From the IMG/VR virus record IMGVR_UViG_3300036804_000068, positions 1 to 34,692 of that record: DNA of 34,692 nucleotides; one strand, written 5' to 3'. Below, one piece after another: positions 909 to 30,604 of the stretch (its first letter is position 1; every line of letters begins with the position of its first letter). This stretch comes from a virus. The notes below the pieces were generated by a model, which was given only the letters and a program-made list of their open reading frames with translations, ran no database searches and was not told where the DNA came from. The position numbers and the translations under genes are program-made.

Positions 909-1820
909 TTACTCGACTTCGCGGAACTCCGCGTCCTTGATCGCTGGCGCGCTCAAAGGTTTGTCACCCTTCAAATCCGCCATGGTTTGCGCCAGCGTCC
1001 ACAGCGCGCGATTAAGCGACACGTTTTGGTCGATACCGCGAATTTCGCGCGTCGTCATGTTGCGGCGCCGGTTGTTGGCGTCGCGCGTGACGCCGTGCAA
1101 ACCGCCTTTCATGACGTTCTCTTGCACGCGATTGAACGTCGACCAAAGGTCGGCGCCGTTGTCGTCATAGCGGCGCGCGCGCAGCAATTGCTCGGCATGA
1201 AGCGGCGCTTTTTCGCCCGGCGCGAGATCGAACCGAACCGTCAACGCGGCATCCGCCAGGGCGATTTGCTCGGGCGCCGGCAAGGCGATCGCCTTCATCC
1301 GGTCAACGCTGTCGCCGACTTCGCCAAGGCGGTCAGCGATCGTGTAGGCGCCCTCGACGACATCCGACACGATGTCGCCCTTGTGATGCACGCGAACTTC
1401 GTCGAGCGTGTCGCCGACGATCATTCCATTCATGCACATGAAGCGAAACCACCCGCCAAACAGTTGTGCCGAGCTTTGCCCGCCGTGCGAGTTGAGCATG
1501 ACGATTTCCGCCACGTCCGGCTTGGCGACGGTGAAGTCGCGGCGCAGGCGAATGAGATGCTTCGTATGGCCGCGCATGTCCTCCTTGCGCGTGTTCGCCT
1601 GAATTGCGTACGTCGGCTTGAAGCCTTCCTTTGCGAGGCCGCGCAGCAAGTCGATGGTCGAGACGTAGGTGTAACGATCCGAGCGGCTTGCGTGGGCGTT
1701 GTCGGCGAAGATCGCCGGCAAGCGCGCGCGCATTTCGTCCTCGGTCAGAAATTCGCCAGCGCGAGCTTGCAACGCGTTGCTGCGAGCGTCCTTGGCAAAC
1801 GATGATGCTAGTTTTGTCAT
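909..1820 (-). CDS. DUF932 (phage/plasmid-like) protein
   Basis: A 303-residue protein starting MTKLASSFAKDARS. It has the character of the DUF932 family: an N-terminal acidic/basic leader, a central block around LRRDFTVAKPDVAEIVMLNSH and GGWFRFMCMNGMIVGD, and a C-terminal helical half containing DLWSTFNRVQENVMKGG. DUF932 proteins are common on phages and plasmids and their function is not established. The start at 1820 is preferred over possible starts at 1889 and 1895 because the promoter -10 box lies at 1868-1873. It is monocistronic, followed by a terminator at 804-837. Identification is by pattern only. Confidence 0.85.
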   Translation of the reverse strand: MTKLASSFAKDARSNALQARAGEFLTEDEMRARLPAIFADNAHASRSDRYTYVSTIDLLRGLAKEGFKPTYAIQANTRKEDMRGHTKHLIRLRRDFTVAKPDVAEIVMLNSHGGQSSAQLFGGWFRFMCMNGMIVGDTLDEVRVHHKGDIVSDVVEGAYTIADRLGEVGDSVDRMKAIALPAPEQIALADAALTVRFDLAPGEKAPLHAEQLLRARRYDDNGADLWSTFNRVQENVMKGGLHGVTRDANNRRRNMTTREIRGIDQNVSLNRALWTLAQTMADLKGDKPLSAPAIKDAEFREVE

Positions 1821-1867
1821 CTGTCCGGTTTCCAGTTTTTGCGACGCTGAATTGCGCCGACAGGTGT

Positions 1868-1895
1868 CATATAGATCGCTTGACGCCATTGTCAA
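1868..1895 (-). promoter_or_regulatory. Sigma70-type promoter for the DUF932 gene
   Basis: On the minus strand TTGACA (1895-1890), 16 bases, TATATG (1873-1868). The -35 TTGACA overlaps the stop codon of the preceding gene. A degenerate operator-like repeat (TGTCAA-N9-TAGTCA, 1890-1910) covers the -35. Confidence 0.8.
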
Positions 1896-8861: not shown

Positions 8862-9129
8862 CTGGATTGAGGGGAAACTGTTCCACAACGGCGAACCGTT
8901 GGGCGTGTCGGACGAGTTGGAGGCCGCTCGCGTCATGCTCGCACGCAACCTAGCTTCGCGTGACGACAAGTTTACAACCTACCGTGGCGAAATGCCATGC
9001 TTCACGGCCGGCTTTGGCTGGGCGGCGGATCGGCGGGTTAGGGTCAACAAGAGCGGCACCCCGATTTTCGTGCGTGAGGGTCGCCAAATTGACGCTGGGC
9101 AGGCAAACGAGACAGGAGAGGTAGAATGA
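8842..9129 (+). CDS. Hypothetical protein (95 aa)
   Basis: Begins MNHMRLDWIEGKLFHNGEPL with AGGGGAAACC just upstream and overlaps the previous gene by 20 bases. It is mixed alpha/beta, ending in an acidic tail. Last gene of the plus operon; only 17 bases separate it from the convergent late operon and no terminator is visible there. Confidence 0.6.
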   Translation: MNHMRLDWIEGKLFHNGEPLGVSDELEAARVMLARNLASRDDKFTTYRGEMPCFTAGFGWAADRRVRVNKSGTPIFVREGRQIDAGQANETGEVE

Positions 9130-9146
9130 CCCGTCGGCCGCCTCCG

Positions 9147-9341
9147 CTACCTCCTGGACGACAACCAAACGATCGGGCAGACAACCGTGACGCAGTACAC
9201 GGCCAACAGCACAAGCGCCGGTTGCTGGACAGCGGGCGCGGCGGCGAGCGCGGCTCGCGCCAGGACGATCGCGCCGATGACCGCGAGCAAGAGGACCGCC
9301 CGGACCGCGAGGATGACGAATAACACGTTGAGCGAGCCCAT
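9147..9341 (-). CDS. Two-TM holin-like protein
   Basis: A 64-residue protein starting MGSLNVLFVILAVR. It has two transmembrane helices (about 5-30 and 41-59), a short Ala/Pro loop between them and a terminal SSRR. This is the size and topology of a class II holin. The start is chosen because GGAAAG lies eight bases upstream and it leaves the parS site intergenic; a longer frame up to 9437 would overlap the upstream gene. It is the last gene of the late operon, downstream of the virion lysin, so it may form the pore for cell lysis. Role inferred. Confidence 0.6.
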   Translation of the reverse strand: MGSLNVLFVILAVRAVLLLAVIGAIVLARAALAAAPAVQQPALVLLAVYCVTVVCPIVWLSSRR

Positions 9342-9377
9342 CACGCCGGCTTTCCACGCGCCCCGCGCGACAAACTC

Positions 9378-9393
9378 TGTTTCACGTGAAACA
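9378..9393. promoter_or_regulatory. Canonical parS centromere site
   Basis: TGTTTCACGTGAAACA, a perfect 16-bp palindrome identical to the chromosomal parS consensus bound by ParB/Spo0J in most bacteria. It lies in the 58-base gap between the stop at 9400 and the start at 9341. No parA or parB is seen here. In-frame reading through it in the alternative longer ORF gives VSRET, so it could also be part of a coding region if that start were used. Confidence 0.85.
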
Positions 9394-9399
9394 GGCGCG

Positions 9400-9729
9400 C
9401 TAGGCGTCGCCGATTTCGTCTCGGATGTCGTCCTCATCGCGCTCGCCACGGCCGCCAAATCCGGCGCCTGACGCTCGCCGACGAGCTGCATCGGTGGGCG
9501 AGAAGGCTTGGGCGTACCTGTCGATGGCTGACCCGCGTCCGACATCAAACTCGCCTTTCCTCAAATCCACGAACATCTTCTGTACGCGGCCGACGGCGAT
9601 CAAAGCCGCGATCCGCTGCGGCATTGTCATCCGTTCCTCAAGATCGGCCGCCTCCATGTCGTCAAGCAGCTTGCCGAGCTGCTTGTACAGCCGCTCGTTG
9701 ATGTTGAGCGGATCACTTTCCTTCGCCAT
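9400..9729 (-). CDS. Hypothetical phage protein (109 aa)
   Basis: Begins MAKESDPLNINERLYKQLGK. The N-terminal half (LDDMEAADLEERMTMPQRIA, ALIAVGRVQKMFVDL) is helical and resembles small proteins found next to virion genes in podovirus-like phages. The C-terminus is Gly/Arg/Asp-rich and disordered-looking. It overlaps the upstream gene by 17 bases. Function unknown. Confidence 0.7.
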   Translation of the reverse strand: MAKESDPLNINERLYKQLGKLLDDMEAADLEERMTMPQRIAALIAVGRVQKMFVDLRKGEFDVGRGSAIDRYAQAFSPTDAARRRASGAGFGGRGERDEDDIRDEIGDA

Positions 9730-12501: not shown

Positions 12502-14759
12502 TGCTGCGCCACCGTGAGCGGGTTGCCGGAGAAATCACGCTGGACGAGCGGCGTGCCGTCCGGGTTCGGCCCCTTGCTGTCGCCGGTCTGCACCGTGCCG
12601 GGTTGCCCGCCGCCGCCGCCCGAGCCGTAGTTCCACGCGAATTGCTTGCCCGCCTGACCCGCCGGCTGGCGGCCGAAGCCCATGCGCTGCGCCGTCGTCC
12701 ACGGCCCCCATCCCTTGGTCTGCGCATACCGCAGCGCGTACACGATTTGATCCTTCCATGTGTTCGGATCGCGCGGGTCCTCGCCGGTCGCCTGCATGAA
12801 CGCCTGTCCCAACGCGCCGGGCGCAATATCGAGCTGGAAAGGCCCGTGACTGCCAGCGCCGGGATCACGCGGATTGGAGTAGTTCTGCCCGTAGGCGCTT
12901 TCGGCCTGAAGCACGCGCGAGGCTTGATCCGGGTTGATCCCTAAGCTCTGCGCGACTTGCCGCGTAAATTGATCAGCTTGCTGCCCGGTGTAGGGGAGCG
13001 GTTGACCGTTCGGGCCTCTGCCCGGCGTCGAACTCGGCGGGCCGCTGTAACCGCCGCTCCCGCCGCCGCCACCACCCTGTCCCGGCCGTCCGCCGAACCG
13101 GCCGCCTTGTTGGAAGCCGCCGCCCTGCCCTTGTGGCGCGATCCCCAACGCCTGCAAGATTTGATCGAGCTGCGGATTGCCTGTCCCGCCGCCGCCATCC
13201 ATGCCGCCGCCGCCATAGCCGAGCGCGTTGCCGCCGACTTGGCCGCCCATGCTCGCCATGTATTTCGGGTCAAGCGGTCGCCAGCCGCCGCCCGGATGAA
13301 AGCCGAAGCCGCGCCAGCCCATGCCCGGATGATGATAGGGCCACATGCCCGAACCGTGGCCGCCCGGATGGCCGCCCATGAACCGGCCGCCGAACCGGCC
13401 ATGGCCGCCGCGGCCGAACGGGAAACCTCGGAAACGGCCGCGCCCGCCGCCCATGCCGCCGCTCAACAGGCCGCCGAGCAACGGCATCACCATCTGCGCC
13501 AGTTCGCCAAGCATCGGCGGAACGCCCTGCATCCCCATGCGGTCGCGGGTGATGTTGCTCACGCCGCGCTGCGGCGCTCCGTCCATGTGGTAGGGCCGCT
13601 CGCCGTCGGCCGGCTTCTTGGTCGGCAAGTTGCTGTCGTCAGCCCGCTTTTTGGCTTCCGATGGCGACACGCCCTGCTGTTTCAGCCATTTCTCGTACTC
13701 CGCCTTGGTCGCGGGCTGGGTCGCGTCGTCCGCGCCTTGCTGGACCGGCGGCTTGGGCATCTGGCCCTTGTCGCCCACCGCCGGCGGCGTCGGCGTCGGC
13801 GTTCCCGGCCCGCCCGACGTGGTTCCAGGCGGCGTCGGTTGATCGGTCGGAAGGCTCGGGTCCGGGCGATATTGCTGGCCCGGATAAGGCATGTTGCGCT
13901 GATCAGGCGGGATGTTGGCCGGCGTCGGCGGAAGCTCGCCGGTCTCCGCCGGCGTCGGCGACATGACGGCGCCCGCGACGCCCAACGGCGATCCCCGCGC
14001 AATGGCCGAAGCCAAAGCCGGAATGCCGCCCGCCCCCGCCGGACTTAGCTCGGGAGCTGCGGGCGCTTGGCCGCCCTGTGTCGCGCCGCTCACAGCGCCC
14101 TGTCCCGCCGCCGCCGCGCGAGGATTGCGCGCCAACGGACCTTGCGCGTCGGCCTCGGCCGGGTTTTGGCCGGGAGCAAGCCCGAGCCCCGAACTGCCCG
14201 GCTGACGCGGCGGAACGCCGGACGTGTCGATTTGTGCCGCCGCATCGAGCGGGTTTGGCATGAGCGGGTCTTGGATCGGCCCCTCGGGAACGCTCTTCGG
14301 CCCCTGGCCGCCGCCCGCCGGCGGCGGGTTGCCGCCTCCGCCTCCGCCTCCGCCTCCGCCGGCCCCGCCGCCAGCCTGATAGGGATTGCCGCCCTTGGCG
14401 ATGCTGCTCTTGAGCAAATCAACCAATTCGTCGCGCGTCGGCGCGGTCCACTTCTGACCCGGACCCGGCATCTGACCGCCCGGAGCGTTTTGGCCGCCTT
14501 GCTGGTTTTGCGGCGCGGTCGGCGCCTGTCCAGGCGGATTGATCGCCTCGCTCGCCGCCACCGTGCCAGTCGGATCAACGGATTGCGTGAACTCTTGGCT
14601 CGGATCGGTCGTCTGGCCGGGCGCCGCACTGCCGCCAAGCATCGACGACACGGCGCTCCCCAAGCCGCCGCCTTGACCCGAGAAGGCTTGTCCGACGCCG
14701 CTCAAGGCGGAGCCAATGCCGCCCGCTAGACCGGAGAGTGCATCGCCAACATCGCCCAT
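12498..14759 (-). CDS. Virion protein with lytic (lysozyme/transglycosylase-like) domain
   Basis: A 753-residue protein. Residues 1-430 are Gly/Pro/Gln-rich and disordered. About 430-500 is a Gly/Phe/His-rich block (RGRFRGFPFGRGGHGRFGGR). Residues 592-705 look like a peptidoglycan hydrolase: VLQAESAYGQNYSNPRDPGA, with the candidate catalytic Glu about 620, then SHGPFQLDIAPG and QIVYALRYAQTKGWGPW. This fits a lytic transglycosylase or tail-lysozyme fold that opens the cell wall during DNA entry. Operator O7 lies directly upstream and the ribosome binding site is weak (AGG 25 bases away). Role inferred from motifs. Confidence 0.75.
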   Translation of the reverse strand: MGDVGDALSGLAGGIGSALSGVGQAFSGQGGGLGSAVSSMLGGSAAPGQTTDPSQEFTQSVDPTGTVAASEAINPPGQAPTAPQNQQGGQNAPGGQMPGPGQKWTAPTRDELVDLLKSSIAKGGNPYQAGGGAGGGGGGGGGGNPPPAGGGQGPKSVPEGPIQDPLMPNPLDAAAQIDTSGVPPRQPGSSGLGLAPGQNPAEADAQGPLARNPRAAAAGQGAVSGATQGGQAPAAPELSPAGAGGIPALASAIARGSPLGVAGAVMSPTPAETGELPPTPANIPPDQRNMPYPGQQYRPDPSLPTDQPTPPGTTSGGPGTPTPTPPAVGDKGQMPKPPVQQGADDATQPATKAEYEKWLKQQGVSPSEAKKRADDSNLPTKKPADGERPYHMDGAPQRGVSNITRDRMGMQGVPPMLGELAQMVMPLLGGLLSGGMGGGRGRFRGFPFGRGGHGRFGGRFMGGHPGGHGSGMWPYHHPGMGWRGFGFHPGGGWRPLDPKYMASMGGQVGGNALGYGGGGMDGGGGTGNPQLDQILQALGIAPQGQGGGFQQGGRFGGRPGQGGGGGGSGGYSGPPSSTPGRGPNGQPLPYTGQQADQFTRQVAQSLGINPDQASRVLQAESAYGQNYSNPRDPGAGSHGPFQLDIAPGALGQAFMQATGEDPRDPNTWKDQIVYALRYAQTKGWGPWTTAQRMGFGRQPAGQAGKQFAWNYGSGGGGGQPGTVQTGDSKGPNPDGTPLVQRDFSGNPLTVAQQ

Positions 14760-21225: not shown

Positions 21226-21769
21226 GCGGTTTTGCCTTGGCGTGGTGGTGCGACCGCTTGTGCGCCGCCGGCGGCGGCGGTTCCTCGGGCTCCGGCGCGG
21301 GCTCGGGCTCGGGCTCGGGCTTGGGCTTGGGCCGTGGCTGCGTCGCGGCCGAGCTGAGCGAGTGCGCCTCGACGAGCATCGTCGGAATGACGGGCGTGGT
21401 CGGCGTCGACGGCGGGGCGACGTTCCCCATGTTGAAAATGTTGGCAAACACGATCGGGGGGCTCGGGCTGCTGGTGGTGAAATCAGGAAACAGGTCGGCC
21501 GCCGTCGGCGTCAAGGCGTCGCCGGTGGCGAACTGCGGCTGCGGATAGCCCGCCACGCTCGGGGGAACGGGGGCGGACGGGACAACCGGCGTCGGAAACG
21601 GCGCATTGCCGCCGAAGCCGACTTGCGGGGGAGGAAGCCACGCGCCGGCTGTCCCGAGCGGAAACGACGGCGGCAGGCTCTCGCCGCCGGCGACAATCAC
21701 CGGCTGCGGAATGCCCGCGATGGACGGCGGGACCGGCGCCGGTTGAATTGGAGCCGTGCCGTTGCTCAT
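21206..21769 (-). CDS. Pro-rich virion protein with His/Lys-rich tail
   Basis: A 187-residue protein with two diverged repeats (VPPSIAGIPQPVIVAGGESL and VPPSVAGYPQPQFATGDAL), then a PKPEPEPEPAPEPEEPPPP stretch and a basic His-rich end (KRSHHHAKAKPHGNRGH). Low-complexity, disordered. The stop/start junction with the upstream gene is ATGA and the 3' end overlaps the next gene by 20 bases. Possibly a flexible capsid accessory; no family recognised. Confidence 0.6.
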   Translation of the reverse strand: MSNGTAPIQPAPVPPSIAGIPQPVIVAGGESLPPSFPLGTAGAWLPPPQVGFGGNAPFPTPVVPSAPVPPSVAGYPQPQFATGDALTPTAADLFPDFTTSSPSPPIVFANIFNMGNVAPPSTPTTPVIPTMLVEAHSLSSAATQPRPKPKPEPEPEPAPEPEEPPPPAAHKRSHHHAKAKPHGNRGH

Positions 21770-22338
21770 ACCGAAAACGCCTGCGTAATGTTGGCGAAAC
21801 CCGCCCCGGCGATGACCACGTTCTGCCCGTCAGCCAAAACCGTCCCGCCAGAGTTGGGATTGACCAAAACCGTCGCCGGAGCGCACGGATCGCGCCGCCA
21901 ACCGAAGAAATTGGGCGGAACACGGCCCGGAATGGGGCGAATTGGCGGATCGGTGTTGCCGGTCGCCCGCTGCCACGCCCGCCAAGCCTCCAAATAGGCG
22001 TTGTGGGTCATGAAACGCTGCGGAACGGGAGGCCCGAATTTCTTTTGGGACAAATTTCGCTTTTGCGGCGGTCCAGGGCTCACTGGCGGACCTGGACCGC
22101 GCGGCGGCGCCCGTCCCTGCCCCGGCAAGATGCCTGTCCCCGGAACGCGCGGCGGATTGAAGGGCTGCGCCTCGGGCCGGAACATGAGCACCCGGTTCGA
22201 GCCCGTTTGCACGACCCACGCGCCCTTCGGCAGCACGTAGCCACATGGATGACACGATAAATCGACGCTGCGCGGCCTCCCGAACGGCGAAAGTTGCGAT
22301 CCGGGCGGGCCGGGCGGCCAAGAACTGACCGGAAGCAT
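21766..22338 (-). CDS. Pro-rich head-region protein (190 aa)
   Basis: Begins MLPVSSWPPGPPGSQLSPFG. The middle is Pro/Gly/Arg-rich (PPRGPGPPVSPGPPQ). The C-terminus (VLVNPNSGGTVLADGQNVVI) is beta-like and compact, as in a small virion domain. It follows the major capsid protein with a TGATG junction. It may be a capsid decoration or cement protein, which commonly sits here; inference. Confidence 0.6.
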   Translation of the reverse strand: MLPVSSWPPGPPGSQLSPFGRPRSVDLSCHPCGYVLPKGAWVVQTGSNRVLMFRPEAQPFNPPRVPGTGILPGQGRAPPRGPGPPVSPGPPQKRNLSQKKFGPPVPQRFMTHNAYLEAWRAWQRATGNTDPPIRPIPGRVPPNFFGWRRDPCAPATVLVNPNSGGTVLADGQNVVIAGAGFANITQAFSV

Positions 22339-23354
22339 CAGAAAGCGGCGCCTCCGGTGATCCCGGTCATGATGACCCCCGTCGACGGCTTAGAGCAGAC
22401 CAAATTGAGCGCAGTAAGCGATAGACCCACGCTCGCAATCTGCCCTTGCGGGATGGTCGAGTACCACCCGGTCCAGGCGAAGTTCGCATCCTCATGGACA
22501 ACCAACGTGATGTATTTGGAATTGAACCCATAGGCAGTCCCCTGCGGGCAATTCAGGTCGAAAAATAGTGGAGTATCGCCAAGGAGAAGGCCGCGAAAAC
22601 CACTATTGACGGGATCGTCCTTTCCCCACCTTGAAGAGGGATCATTGTTATACCTTTCGACCGCCATGAAATCGGTCAACAATGTCGTCCAGTCCTCGAC
22701 GGACAGGACCATGAAATCGAGCGCCTCGCCGCCAGAATTTTTCACCGCCGCAAGCATGTTGGGGATGAAGGCGGCGCGGGTCAGAACGTCGCCGGCGGCG
22801 GCGATCGAGAGGCCGGCCCAATCGGGATACCCCGAAGCGCCGGTCCTCGCCAGCCCGCCATACGGCGTCGTCGTTCCGTAGGCGTCGGCGAGCGAATACA
22901 TCTGAAGCACGTTGGCCGTCGGCGGCCCGAACAGGCTTCCGGCGAGCGCCTGAAGGGCGCTGTTCTTCAGATCGTTGAGCTTGAGCATCAGGCGGCTCGC
23001 GACCGCGATGGCGTCCTGCGTCACAAGCTGTTCGAGCCCAAGCGAGCTGACTGGCGTCGCCAAGCAGCACATGTTGAACTCGGCGTTGACGGTCGCGGCC
23101 ACGTCTTGCGGCAAATCGAACTGGCCGGCGGGGCCAATCCATGAGCTTTGGACGTACTGCCCGGTCTGCACGGGCTGTGTGTATGGGGATACACCGCCGC
23201 TGGCCCTGATCGCATTGCGCAATAGCAACGCGAGCAGTGGATTTTGTTTGTAGATCAGAATGACGACCATCTGCGCGAACACGCGCCGGATGGTGGCTTC
23301 AAGTTCTAGGCCGATCGGACCCGACGGGATGATGCCTGCGCCGAGCTGGGGCAT
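22338..23354 (-). CDS. Major capsid protein (HK97-fold)
   Basis: A 338-residue protein, normal for an HK97-fold capsid subunit without a long leader. The N-terminal helix (EATIRRVFAQMVVILIYKQN), the E-loop-like and P-domain helices (FDLPQDVAATVNAEFNMCCL, RLMLKLNDLKNSALQALAGS) and the late beta region (YGFNSKYITLVVHEDANFAW) fit. It lies directly after the scaffold gene, and upstream of the Pro-rich accessory genes and tail adaptor. No sequence search was done. Confidence 0.85.
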   Translation of the reverse strand: MPQLGAGIIPSGPIGLELEATIRRVFAQMVVILIYKQNPLLALLLRNAIRASGGVSPYTQPVQTGQYVQSSWIGPAGQFDLPQDVAATVNAEFNMCCLATPVSSLGLEQLVTQDAIAVASRLMLKLNDLKNSALQALAGSLFGPPTANVLQMYSLADAYGTTTPYGGLARTGASGYPDWAGLSIAAAGDVLTRAAFIPNMLAAVKNSGGEALDFMVLSVEDWTTLLTDFMAVERYNNDPSSRWGKDDPVNSGFRGLLLGDTPLFFDLNCPQGTAYGFNSKYITLVVHEDANFAWTGWYSTIPQGQIASVGLSLTALNLVCSKPSTGVIMTGITGGAAF

Positions 23355-24825: not shown

Positions 24826-25401
24826 TCAGGCCAACGGCGTCAAGCGGAGGCCCGCCGACTTTCGCCACGCGACGCCTCCCATCAAGGCAAAGCCGACGAT
24901 CAGCATCGCCCAGGTCGACGGCTCGGGAATGGCCGACGTCGCGGTGAACGAGCCCGAACCGCTGATCACGTCGCCCGCGCCGCCCGCCTGCGTGAACGAT
25001 AGATCGAGCACGCCCTTGGTCCCGGTCGGAAGGCCGGGGCCGAACAAGACGCCGCTGCCGGCGATGTCAAGCTCGTCGCCGACAAAGCTGACCGCGCTCG
25101 TCTTGGTCGTGTCGTGGAACACGCCGCCGTCCCACGAAATGGTGATGAGCGAGCCAATCGCGGTCGAGAGCGGATTGGTCAGGTCGAGCACGTCGCCGCC
25201 GACCAGACCGCCGAGCGGGTCAACCACCTCGACGGCGTTCCACGTGGTGACGCCGACCGTGGTCGCAGTCGCCAAATCGGAAGCCGGATTGGCGGTGACG
25301 CCCGCCGCGTTGGCGGTGAAGTCGGTTTCGGTGATGACCGCCGCCGCGCTCGGCGCGGCGGATGCCGCCAAGAAGGCGGCGGCCATGAGAAATCGGTTCA
25401 T
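24826..25401 (-). CDS. PEP-CTERM (PEPxxWA) sorting-signal protein
   Basis: A 191-residue protein. Residues 1-21 are a signal peptide (FLMAAAFLAASAAPSAAA). The mature part is Gly/Thr/Asp-rich, with LPTGTKGVLDLSFTQAGGAG near its end. The C-terminus contains IPEPSTWAMLIVGFALMGG and then AWRKS: the PEP motif, a transmembrane helix and a basic stop, as in PEPxxWA-CTERM proteins of proteobacteria. Such proteins are processed by exosortase and go to the cell surface or matrix. About nine further residues follow the basic stop. Strong ribosome binding site (AAGGAGAGTGC). Phage genes with this signal are unexpected. Confidence 0.85.
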   Translation of the reverse strand: MNRFLMAAAFLAASAAPSAAAVITETDFTANAAGVTANPASDLATATTVGVTTWNAVEVVDPLGGLVGGDVLDLTNPLSTAIGSLITISWDGGVFHDTTKTSAVSFVGDELDIAGSGVLFGPGLPTGTKGVLDLSFTQAGGAGDVISGSGSFTATSAIPEPSTWAMLIVGFALMGGVAWRKSAGLRLTPLA

Positions 25402-26070: not shown

Positions 26071-27807
26071 TCAATGCGCGCCCTGTCGAGCCTTGCCCCT
26101 CGGCGCGCGCCCGCCGCCGCCCGTGTTGATCCCCATAACCCCGGCGATCAACTGTTCCTTTTTGTCCTCTTGCGCCTGCTTGGCCTGCGCCTTCTGCCGC
26201 TGTTTCAGCCGGGCGAGCAACAGCTCCGCGCCGGGCGGATGCAGCATGTGAATTAAATCCTCGGCGTCGATCGCTCCCGCGCGGGCAAGCGCGATTGCAA
26301 CTTGTCGGTTATCCTCTGCAAAAGCCGGCGACGCTGAGTGGCTGTCAACGGAGACTTGGTAGCCGCCGGGGAGCTGGCTGAGTAGGAACTCCTGCTTGGT
26401 GTCGGCGGTGGTGTAGACGAGCGCGTCCATCGCCTGCATGATGCGGAGCGCCAGAAACCCGACATCCGCAAGTTGCCTCTCAATTCGTGCGGCCTGATCA
26501 ATGAGCCGCCCGCCGGAGGTGCGCACCAGGGTTTGAGCATGGACGCCAGCGCGCACACCCGGCTCTCCCTGTCCAGACATGATTGGGGAGAAACCGCTAG
26601 CTTCATCGAACAATTTGAAAATAAACTCAAGCTCTTCCAAGTAGTTTTCGGGCGGCGGGTCCAGTAGTTTCGACGCTTTCGCATTTGGATTTGGGTCGTT
26701 AATAAAACCTCCCTCGTTGACAATCTTATAGTATTGCTCTTCGGTGACGGAGGTGAACCCGCTGAATACTTGTGGAGCATTGACGTTACGATCCCACATG
26801 ACCTTGATGTCGCGCAAACGCTTGCTGAGCATGTCCTGAAGCATCTGCACGCTGGCGATGATCGAGCGGCCCCAAAAATAGCCGGGAGTTTGCTGGCCCT
26901 GCACCTTGACGAAGGGCGTCTTGCCGGGAACGCGGCTTAGGTTTCGTCGGGTTTTATCCCCTTCAATGATAATTGGCTCGGCCCCGTAAATCGTTTGGAT
27001 TGTCGTCCAGTCCTCGGCCCGGTCGCGGTCCTTGATCCATACTTCGCAGAGTTTGACAGTGGGAGCGAAGCGCCGTTGAGGGCGCCAGGGCGTCGGAACA
27101 GGGAACACATTGACGATCCCGGCGGCGGAGCTTGGGGCGTCGCCGACGTCTCCCAAGGGCTGGAGCCCTCCAACAACCATCTGATGGAAATATGTCGGCT
27201 CTTCCTCGTCACGGTCAGGCCCCGGATCGTCGTCGAGCTGCTTCATGATTTCCTCGTAGCGAGGATGATCCATGAGCATCGTGCGCAGCTTGCTCTTTGT
27301 CGGGTAACTCACATGACACATCGCCTCTTGCTCGTCCAGCGCCAGCGTCGTCTCGCTGAGCACGCCGAAGTTCTGCGGATGCACATGGCCCGTCTTGAAC
27401 GACCCGCTGTCACCGTCAGGCATAACCTTTAACAGTTGGCAACCATTGACGAGCGACCACACCACGGCTTCCGCAAAGCTCACGTCGGCGTCGGTTTGGC
27501 GAAAGTCGGCGGTCAACTTCTCGGCGACGAGCTGAACGCGTTCGAGCACGTCCTCTTCCTCGCCGCTGTCGTAGGTGAGCTGGAAGCGAACGTCGGTCGG
27601 CTGCATCAGGTAGCCGGCAAGCTTGTCAACGAATGGGCCGATCTTGTTGTAGAGCGCCGCCCGGCTGTCCATCGAGCCCATGTAGTAGTATTGGGCCGCC
27701 CGCGTGTAGACCATCCCGCGCTCGGTCGCGCTCGCCATGCACTCGTCGATGATCTCCTTGATCCACAGCTCAAGGAAGCCGGGCTTGTCGGGTATCCTCA
27801 GAGCCAT
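26071..27807 (-). CDS. Portal protein
   Basis: A 578-residue protein with portal character: an N-terminal helix pair (WIKEIIDECMASATERGMVY), a mid-crown region (LCEVWIKDRDRAEDWTTIQT), the KVMWDRNVNAPQVFSGF segment, a coiled stem (QAARIERQLADVGFLALRIM) and the C-terminal helix-rich crown (LLLARLKQRQKAQAKQAQED). Forms the twelve-subunit DNA channel at the head vertex. It lies downstream of terL and upstream of scaffold and capsid genes. The ATG is overlapped by a short upstream gene. Confidence 0.85.
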   Translation of the reverse strand: MALRIPDKPGFLELWIKEIIDECMASATERGMVYTRAAQYYYMGSMDSRAALYNKIGPFVDKLAGYLMQPTDVRFQLTYDSGEEEDVLERVQLVAEKLTADFRQTDADVSFAEAVVWSLVNGCQLLKVMPDGDSGSFKTGHVHPQNFGVLSETTLALDEQEAMCHVSYPTKSKLRTMLMDHPRYEEIMKQLDDDPGPDRDEEEPTYFHQMVVGGLQPLGDVGDAPSSAAGIVNVFPVPTPWRPQRRFAPTVKLCEVWIKDRDRAEDWTTIQTIYGAEPIIIEGDKTRRNLSRVPGKTPFVKVQGQQTPGYFWGRSIIASVQMLQDMLSKRLRDIKVMWDRNVNAPQVFSGFTSVTEEQYYKIVNEGGFINDPNPNAKASKLLDPPPENYLEELEFIFKLFDEASGFSPIMSGQGEPGVRAGVHAQTLVRTSGGRLIDQAARIERQLADVGFLALRIMQAMDALVYTTADTKQEFLLSQLPGGYQVSVDSHSASPAFAEDNRQVAIALARAGAIDAEDLIHMLHPPGAELLLARLKQRQKAQAKQAQEDKKEQLIAGVMGINTGGGGRAPRGKARQGAH

Positions 27808-28557: not shown

Positions 28558-28793
28558 GTCGCCGCCTTGACCGCCATCATCTGAGCGCTGAGCGTGTTCA
28601 TGATCGCCTCGCGCCAGATGAACTGTTCCGGCCCTTCATCCGGCGCCTTCTCGAAACCGTCGGAGAGGATGTCAGCGATTTCGGCGAACAACCCCTTGAG
28701 CTGCGCCACCTTCGGGTCGCCGCTCGGATTGAAGTCGAAGCCGACCAGCCTCTTGCCGAAGCTCTCCCCCGGCTTGCGGTCGTAGCCTGTCAT
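28545..28793 (-). CDS. Acb2/Tad1-like hairpin protein (anti-defence sponge)
   Basis: An 82-residue protein starting MTGYDRKPGESF. It has GFDFNPSGDPKVAQLKGLFA, then EIADIL, and a second helix ending LSAQMMAVKAATW, the pattern of the helical hairpin shared by the anti-CBASS protein Acb2 and Tad1, which bind and sequester cyclic nucleotide signals. Full length fits Acb2. The start at 28793 overlaps the terL stop (ATGA). Which ligands it binds cannot be read from the sequence. I recognise the motif from memory only. Confidence 0.75.
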   Translation of the reverse strand: MTGYDRKPGESFGKRLVGFDFNPSGDPKVAQLKGLFAEIADILSDGFEKAPDEGPEQFIWREAIMNTLSAQMMAVKAATWRK

Positions 28794-30604
28794 CAAAACT
28801 TCTCCGCCATCGACTTCGTGTTCGCCTTCTGGTTGATTTTCCGAATATGCTCGCTAAACGCGAACGAAAGCAAGGTGCCTGCGTCTTGCGACTTGCGCTC
28901 CCCCTTCACGCTGTCCCACGTTAATTTTCTGGCAATCAGCCCGGCCCGCCGCCATTCGGTCCAGGTGTGATGCGCCAGCACCGTCGCCGACACAAGATCA
29001 TCGTTGACGCCCGTGTCAGGCCCCGCGCCAATCCAGCCGCTCTCCTCCTCGACGATCGCCTGCAATTCCTCCACCAGCCGGATCGAGCGAAACTCGATCC
29101 GCCGCAGCATCAGGCTGTCGCGCAGCGAGCTGTAGACCATCGACTTGTTGTCTTGATTGGTTTTCCAGGCGATCACGTTGCCGGCGCCGCCAAGCGTGTC
29201 GGCGCGCTTGTATAAAAACCATCGCACCGCCCCGATCATGTTGAGGATGTTCTCTGCGCCGGGCTCGCCCTGAAGGATGCCGCGCTCGGCAAGTTGGCGA
29301 AGGTTGCGCACCTCGGGGATCACGGCGGCGCCCACGCCGCTCACCTCGATGTTGGCGAGATGATCCCGGTACGCGCCGCACAGATGCGACAGCACCCAAG
29401 CGAACTGATAGGTCAGCGGCTTGTTCGATTGGAACTCGGCGACTTGCACCAGCCGGTCGGCGTAGCAGCGGAACACCTCAATTGCGTGATCGTTAGCGTC
29501 GCCGCCCCCGCCCCCGCTTGGATCGCCGCCGATGACGTACACGCCCTGCGGCTCGGGTGGCTCCCATACCTTCAGCATCGCCTCTTCGCGCTTCGTCGTC
29601 TGCGCTATCGACGAGCCCAGGAAGGCGTCCTCGAAGCTGTACTTGTAGCCCTTGTAAGGCGGCCCGTTCGTCAGGCTCTCGTTCAACTCCAAGGTGCGTT
29701 GGGCTGGGAAGAACGATGATCCCGAGGCGATGAAGCACTCCCGCTCGTTCCACGGATAGTGCCGAAACATGTATTCCTCGGCGGAAAATTCCGCCTCCCG
29801 TCTCCACCACGCAATCTGCTCCGGCTTGACCGTGATCCCGTACTCGCGCCGAACGTAGCGCGCCTTGGCGATCTCGTCATCGGTCAGCTTGCCGTCCCAA
29901 TAGGTCTTGTAATCTGGATCGGTTTTCAGGATCGAGTACGTCGGATTGGCCCAAAAGCCGACGAAGATGAACCGCATATGGCGGTCCTGCTTCGCCTGCT
30001 GGCAGTGATTGTAAAACCAATTGAACCCGTTGGCGATGCTCTCCCACACGTAGAGCCTGCGCGGGTTGACCCGCGCCAGCGACGCCTTCAGGCTCTCGAC
30101 GCCGGCGAGCGACTTCCACTGCCCGCACTCGGTCGCGTGCATCATGTTGAGCGCGCGGCTCGCGCCAAGGTCGGGGTTGCTCGCCGCCGCCATCAGGTCG
30201 ATGACCGACTTGTTGGCGAACACCATGCCGGTGCGATTGTTGGCGATCAACCGGCTGTCGCCGCTGCGCCACTCGGACGGGAGCGTTTCGAGCAACGCCG
30301 CGAAAATGCGGCGAAGGCGCTCAAGGTTGTCCGTGCGGTCGGCGATGATCGCGCCTTGCACGCCCGGATTGGCGAGCGCCCAAAACAGCTCGATCACACT
30401 ACAAATTGTTGTTATTGCGACCTGTCTGCATTTTAACACGACGAACTCATGCACGTCCTCGTCGAGCCCCTTGGCCACCGCGTCGATGACCAACCTTTGG
30501 CTCAGCCACGGCTCAACGTGCGTGCGGCCCTCTTCCTTCGTGTCGATTTCAACAGCTTGTAGAAGTTGGTAAATTCCTTCCCGAATTGAAGGTCGCTGTG
30601 GCAT
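28793..30604 (-). CDS. terL: Terminase large subunit
   Basis: A 603-residue protein. Walker A-like VVLKCRQVAITT (K58 to T66; the usual Gly at the fourth variable position is Ala63), the HATEC motif with E159 in the typical HxxExxxW setting, and the nuclease acids D361 (VIGGDPSG), E420 (ANIEVSG) and D535/D536 (VNDDLVSA). The enzyme packages DNA using ATP and cuts concatemers. No small terminase was recognised nearby. The start ATG lies after a noncoding gap with a strong hairpin. Confidence 0.9.
   Translation of the reverse strand: MPQRPSIREGIYQLLQAVEIDTKEEGRTHVEPWLSQRLVIDAVAKGLDEDVHEFVVLKCRQVAITTICSVIELFWALANPGVQGAIIADRTDNLERLRRIFAALLETLPSEWRSGDSRLIANNRTGMVFANKSVIDLMAAASNPDLGASRALNMMHATECGQWKSLAGVESLKASLARVNPRRLYVWESIANGFNWFYNHCQQAKQDRHMRFIFVGFWANPTYSILKTDPDYKTYWDGKLTDDEIAKARYVRREYGITVKPEQIAWWRREAEFSAEEYMFRHYPWNERECFIASGSSFFPAQRTLELNESLTNGPPYKGYKYSFEDAFLGSSIAQTTKREEAMLKVWEPPEPQGVYVIGGDPSGGGGGDANDHAIEVFRCYADRLVQVAEFQSNKPLTYQFAWVLSHLCGAYRDHLANIEVSGVGAAVIPEVRNLRQLAERGILQGEPGAENILNMIGAVRWFLYKRADTLGGAGNVIAWKTNQDNKSMVYSSLRDSLMLRRIEFRSIRLVEELQAIVEEESGWIGAGPDTGVNDDLVSATVLAHHTWTEWRRAGLIARKLTWDSVKGERKSQDAGTLLSFAFSEHIRKINQKANTKSMAEKF

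Follow-up and report, generated by a model that had tools for sequence, protein, structure and literature searches.

A parS site inside a membrane-protein gene of the phage

The stretch of DNA analyzed here (the window) is one entire IMG/VR virus record of 34,692 bases, classed as linear. Its minus strand encodes a major capsid protein (22338–23354; phrog_9953, E 2e-17), which was used for the family search and tree below, a terminase large subunit (28793–30604; phrog_2, E 7e-15), and a probable portal protein (26071–27807; weak match to phrog_156). At 9378–9393 the window holds the 16-bp palindrome TGTTTCACGTGAAACA, an exact match to the consensus of chromosomal parS (site A), as the first-pass annotation had reported. 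It is the sole match in the window at up to three mismatches, where shuffled sequences lead to an expectation of 0.03, and a first-order Markov model predicts ~4e-6 exact copies, in agreement with the earlier estimate that a chance match was very improbable. The 16-bp palindrome is that of a chromosomal-type parS, but the setting is not: rather than close to oriC or parAB on a chromosome, it lies on the contig of a phage, which has genes for capsid, terminase, and portal but no parAB.

The first-pass annotation had placed the palindrome in a 58-base gap between two late genes. Site A is instead coding, inside a conserved minus-strand open reading frame at 9147–9548 (133 codons, exact start codon uncertain) that encodes a membrane protein and contains the site as P-VSRET-E. 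This frame is conserved in 32 other contigs at 38–83% identity, and its product has no match in Pfam, NCBIfam, or PHROGs. The site falls in a variable linker preceding the transmembrane part, just before a conserved E-(Y/F)-V-x-R-x-A-W segment. It starts 6 bases beyond the stop codon of the upstream late gene (9400–9729, minus strand), which adjoins the site in relatives as well; its 3' end and the start of the membrane-protein gene overlap in different frames. A plus-strand open reading frame at 9126–9323 is antisense to the conserved membrane-protein gene; it is likely spurious rather than a gene, and probably explains why a gap was reported.

Translated in frame, the palindrome gives VSRET (or FHVK). 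At site A, VSRET is spelled with codons that are rare in the window phage, and the probability of GTT-TCA-CGT-GAA-ACA given VSRET is 1.9e-5 under the codon usage of the window. The identical five codons recur in unrelated proteins, and one-base variants of the site alter the peptide (VSCET, VSHET, VPRET) with most of the palindrome retained. A protein motif VSRET is ruled out by the occurrence of the same DNA in unrelated proteins and in intergenic DNA, and by the improbable codons.

Phage gene content and clues to the host

Searches for ParB_N (PF02195) and ParA-type AAA_31 (PF13614) domains returned none in the window and 44 related contigs (45 in total), consistent with the first-pass observation that the window contains no parA or parB. 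Because the window is a linear fragment, ~8 kb shorter than its longest relatives, absence of these genes from the window phage rests on analogy with site-bearing relatives of 41–43 kb. These longer contigs are among the 45 searched, and a self-contained ParABS system with ParA and ParB on the same replicon was not found in them. Nothing scored above the cut-off for HTH_ParB in 29 contigs. That search gave one generic sub-threshold helix-turn-helix, in an HNH gene, and a phage ParB in disguise was rejected on this basis.

No tyrosine integrase (PF00589) was detected in 32 contigs, and capsid and terminase alignments revealed no integrated relatives in 84,980 species genomes. From these two results the phage seems not to integrate. 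No lysogeny or plasmid-replication function was recognized.

Two genes give hints about the host. The protein encoded at 24826–25401 (minus strand), beside structural genes, bears a PEPxxWA-CTERM sorting signal (NF035944, above cut-off), which is unusual for a phage. A DUF932 protein at 909–1895 (minus strand) has its best plasmid matches in Roseomonas, at 52%. The DUF932 family is common on conjugative plasmids. Together, the PEPxxWA-CTERM protein and the Roseomonas plasmid match suggest an alphaproteobacterial host, and by the same two features the host probably does not form endospores. Plasmid searches for the host gave weak hints at most, and no tRNA genes were found.

One site per genome, in shifting locations

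The family comprises the window and 80 relatives found through the capsid protein, and many of these 81 contigs are fragments. A parS at up to two mismatches is present in 15 of them (six exact, seven with one mismatch, and two with two), and each of the 15 carries exactly one. A reversed-pattern control gave a single match across the 81 contigs, at up to three mismatches, in the window record. When ~300 palindromes of the same composition were scanned against the available family DNA, there were 0 matches at 0–1 mismatch, versus 6 for parS. No recognizable site is present in at least 16 near-complete relatives of 38 kb or more, and the family can therefore do without one.

Four family contigs share a one-base variant, TGTTTCATGTGAAACA, in different genes (G011, G029, G035, and, with one further change, G006). 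This variant may represent the native site of one host lineage. It also has matches in IMG/VR, from which we draw no conclusion.

The sites of the family occupy at least five locations. Seven contigs (the window, G013, G014, G026, G027, G029, and G037) hold parS at up to two mismatches in the same place in the membrane-protein gene, as does G126, which lies outside the 81. Three (G001, G006, and G011) hold it in the gene after the capsid gene, the counterpart of 21766–22338 (minus strand) in the window, and five in other genes (G035, G057, G066, G078, and G080). On the capsid tree this distribution requires at least seven changes of site presence and at least 11 of location.

The window and G001 are sisters on the capsid tree yet differ in site location. 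G001 has the closest homolog of the membrane-protein gene (83% identical) and has no site at that place; three further homologs lack it there as well. Across the 16 columns of site A the two sequences are identical at 5/16 positions, in contrast to 46/60 and 56/60 in the neighboring 60 columns on either side. G001 instead carries CGTTTCACGTGAAACA, a 15/16 copy, at 13019–13034, inside the gene following its capsid gene, where alignments show the window to be without a site. The nearest relative thus shows, taken literally, the pattern that the first-pass annotation had named as counting against its proposal, a missing motif beside conserved flanking genes, but a near-identical copy is present in another gene. 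Because of that copy, the loss in G001 is best counted in these alignments as a relocation, which argues for function. A moving site, with DNA rather than peptide kept, indicates that selection is likely to act on possessing one host-ParB loading site per genome.

That the palindrome is a chance match with no function is a reading we find hardly credible. Many windows and motifs were screened to produce the original observation, and the nearest relative has no site at site A, both of which would fit coincidence. At the level of the family, however, a match in 15 of 81 contigs, set against none at 0–1 mismatch for the control palindromes in the available family DNA, together with repeated relocation, leads us to reject it.

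parS sites without ParB in other phages

Beyond the family, exact TGTTTCACGTGAAACA occurs in at least 119 IMG/VR contigs versus 1 and 0 for two control palindromes, an enrichment whose size is rough since the controls may be under-represented for other reasons. An 18-mer with both flanks fixed has 68 occurrences in IMG/VR. ParB_N scored above the cut-off in 3/45 and 3/32 contigs of two non-family sets, which have a few members in common, or in 6 of ~75 contigs overall. Many of 20 sampled IMG/VR contigs have portal, terminase, tape-measure, tail, or tail-fiber genes near the site. Given this proximity and the low count of PF02195, host contamination was rejected as the source of parS in viral contigs, and an exact match to parS in a viral contig does not in itself point to such contamination. 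In one 49 kb contig without ParB_N, a terminase large subunit gene starts 20 bases downstream of an exact parS (L093:7174-7189). Five contigs (L010, L017, L044, L053, and L063) carry 3–5 exact parS sites in clusters that span from a few hundred to several thousand bases; origin-like arrays, phage-plasmids, and host fragments are among the possible explanations.

Isolated phages show the same combination, with no ParB_N (PF02195) detected in 22 isolates (17 Korravirus and five of the phi29 group). In Arthrobacter Korravirus, 17 genomes were sampled out of more than 100, and every one of them retains the core GTTTCACGTGAAAC. It lies either in the gap between the genes for DNA polymerase (polI) and PurZ or behind an HNH gene that has been inserted into this gap. 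The outer base pair is T..A or C..G, never mixed, and most of the 17 genomes have 1–3 additional parS sites. We found no paper on the Korravirus parS. In the phi29 group, Goe1, B103, hmny2, and BSP11 each carry one exact site plus TGTTTCACGTGGAACA, and BSP2 (Salasvirus) carries four TGTTTCACGTGGAACA sites; the genomes have 2–4 parS sites each, with 0 for the control. The phi29-group sites fit the known Spo0J-dependent entrapment of phage DNA in spores.

The Korravirus arrangement, with its site in one fixed gap, speaks for the possibility that recruited ParB serves a local DNA function, namely SMC loading and compaction, silencing of nearby genes by spreading, or placement of the phage genome beside the host replisome. 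ParB is known to spread ~2 kb from its site in Caulobacter (PMC5815017), and replisomes assemble beside parS in Hyphomonas (PMC6650430). In the window family, the site moves between unrelated genes, and this independence of position disfavors control of one nearby gene while still permitting compaction or replisome placement. We consider a local function of this kind unlikely to be the main explanation.

Alternatively, the resemblance to parS might be coincidental and the palindrome an operator, bound by a phage repressor or by some other regulator of the host. The phage does encode weakly matching helix-turn-helix proteins, and sites for a different host regulator, CtrA, are known in alphaproteobacterial phages (PMC9437464). 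An operator would be expected at a fixed position at the promoter of the gene it regulates, but the family sites lie in coding linkers and move between genes, with one site per genome, mostly within coding sequence. Moreover, the identical 16-mer is present in unrelated Bacillus and Arthrobacter phages, for which the common factor is the conserved ParB. We judge an operator very improbable.

A proposed role for host ParB

In the alphaproteobacterium Hyphomonas neptunium, ParB binds precisely the 16-mer TGTTTCACGTGAAACA, and a two-base change abolishes binding (PMC6650430). We consider it highly probable that host ParB would load at site A. Comparison across the family lends strong support to the core of the first-pass proposal, recruitment of host ParB by the site, although not to the intergenic setting in which that proposal had been framed. 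Our preferred reading, which we regard as reasonably probable, is that site A is a true parS, at which the host's chromosomal ParB loads and which selection maintains, and that the host ParABS system positions unintegrated phage DNA and shares it out.

We hypothesize that host ParB dimers bind the phage parS, close as CTP-dependent clamps, and then slide onto neighboring phage DNA. Host ParA, possibly with SMC or a polar anchor, would then handle the phage genome as it does an origin region. In a slow or delayed infection, phage DNA that is not integrated could in this way be positioned and divided among the daughter cells. This could help a non-integrating phage to persist in slowly growing bacteria. 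Whether segregation or positioning would be the main benefit is, in our estimation, about an even bet.

Recruitment of ParB could also harm the host. In Caulobacter, a lone parS on a plasmid suffices to engage the segregation system, and a single strong site of this kind lowers viability up to ~1000-fold (PMC5815017); because of this effect, interference is a live alternative, in which replicating phage copies, present in large numbers, would titrate ParB and ParA or act as competitors of the host origins and so block host segregation and division. Titration would, however, favor several sites per genome, and the family keeps one; a slow segregation defect would also be of little gain to a virulent phage. 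We regard interference as quite unlikely to be what maintains the site, and favor positioning and sharing of phage DNA by the host ParABS system.

Relation to known systems and significance

Phage use of host ParB is already known from the virulent Bacillus phage phi29, whose chromosome is described as being carried into the spore by Spo0J (ParB) (Meijer et al. 2005, cited in PMC9437464). Like phi29, the window phage belongs to a group in which we found no ParB, ParA, or integrase, and carries a host parS. It differs in belonging to an unrelated family, in its probable alphaproteobacterial host without endospores, and in having one moving site per genome. A second parallel is the mobile element SGI1, which lacks its own ParABS, carries parS mimics, binds the ParB of an IncC plasmid, and is stabilized (PMC10954446). 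The window phage likewise appears to be an element without parAB that bears a site for the ParB of another replicon, but SGI1 parasitizes and destabilizes a plasmid, whereas here the carrier is a phage and the consensus is that of chromosomal ParB.

Plasmid-prophages, which include extrachromosomal mycobacterial prophages and phage-plasmids, resemble our proposal in the parS-based partition of unintegrated phage DNA (PMC7157519). They encode parA and parB, however, and none were found in the contigs of the window family that were searched. CtrA-site clusters offer another likeness, as alphaproteobacterial phage DNA that binds a conserved host cell-cycle factor and that has several independent origins (PMC9437464). 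Those sites are clustered in promoters and regulate transcription; the parS of the window phage is single, moves, and in the family is mostly coding.

A search of papers available without subscription returned none on phages carrying a host chromosomal parS beyond the phi29 work. What appears to be new here is the moving single site, its probable alphaproteobacterial host, and the signs that parS without ParB is widespread. We put forward, at roughly even odds, the broader proposal that non-integrating phages widely use the strategy of carrying a host parS while encoding neither ParA nor ParB, and that many unrelated families have evolved and retained such sites independently, among them the soil family described here, Korravirus and the phi29 group, as well as diverse contigs in IMG/VR. 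ParB loading sites would open the host segregation machinery to unintegrated genomes, and selection would act on having a site, not on where it lies.

If this is correct, ParB foci are predicted to form on infecting phage DNA, and Korravirus in Arthrobacter sp. ATCC 21022, as well as B103 and Goe1 in Bacillus subtilis with and without Spo0J, would provide laboratory models. The presence of a site would offer a way to distinguish phages that are strictly virulent from 'lytic' phages in which a carrier state is hidden. The placement and inheritance of unintegrated DNA in hosts with ParABS would then constitute a general and testable layer of phage biology.
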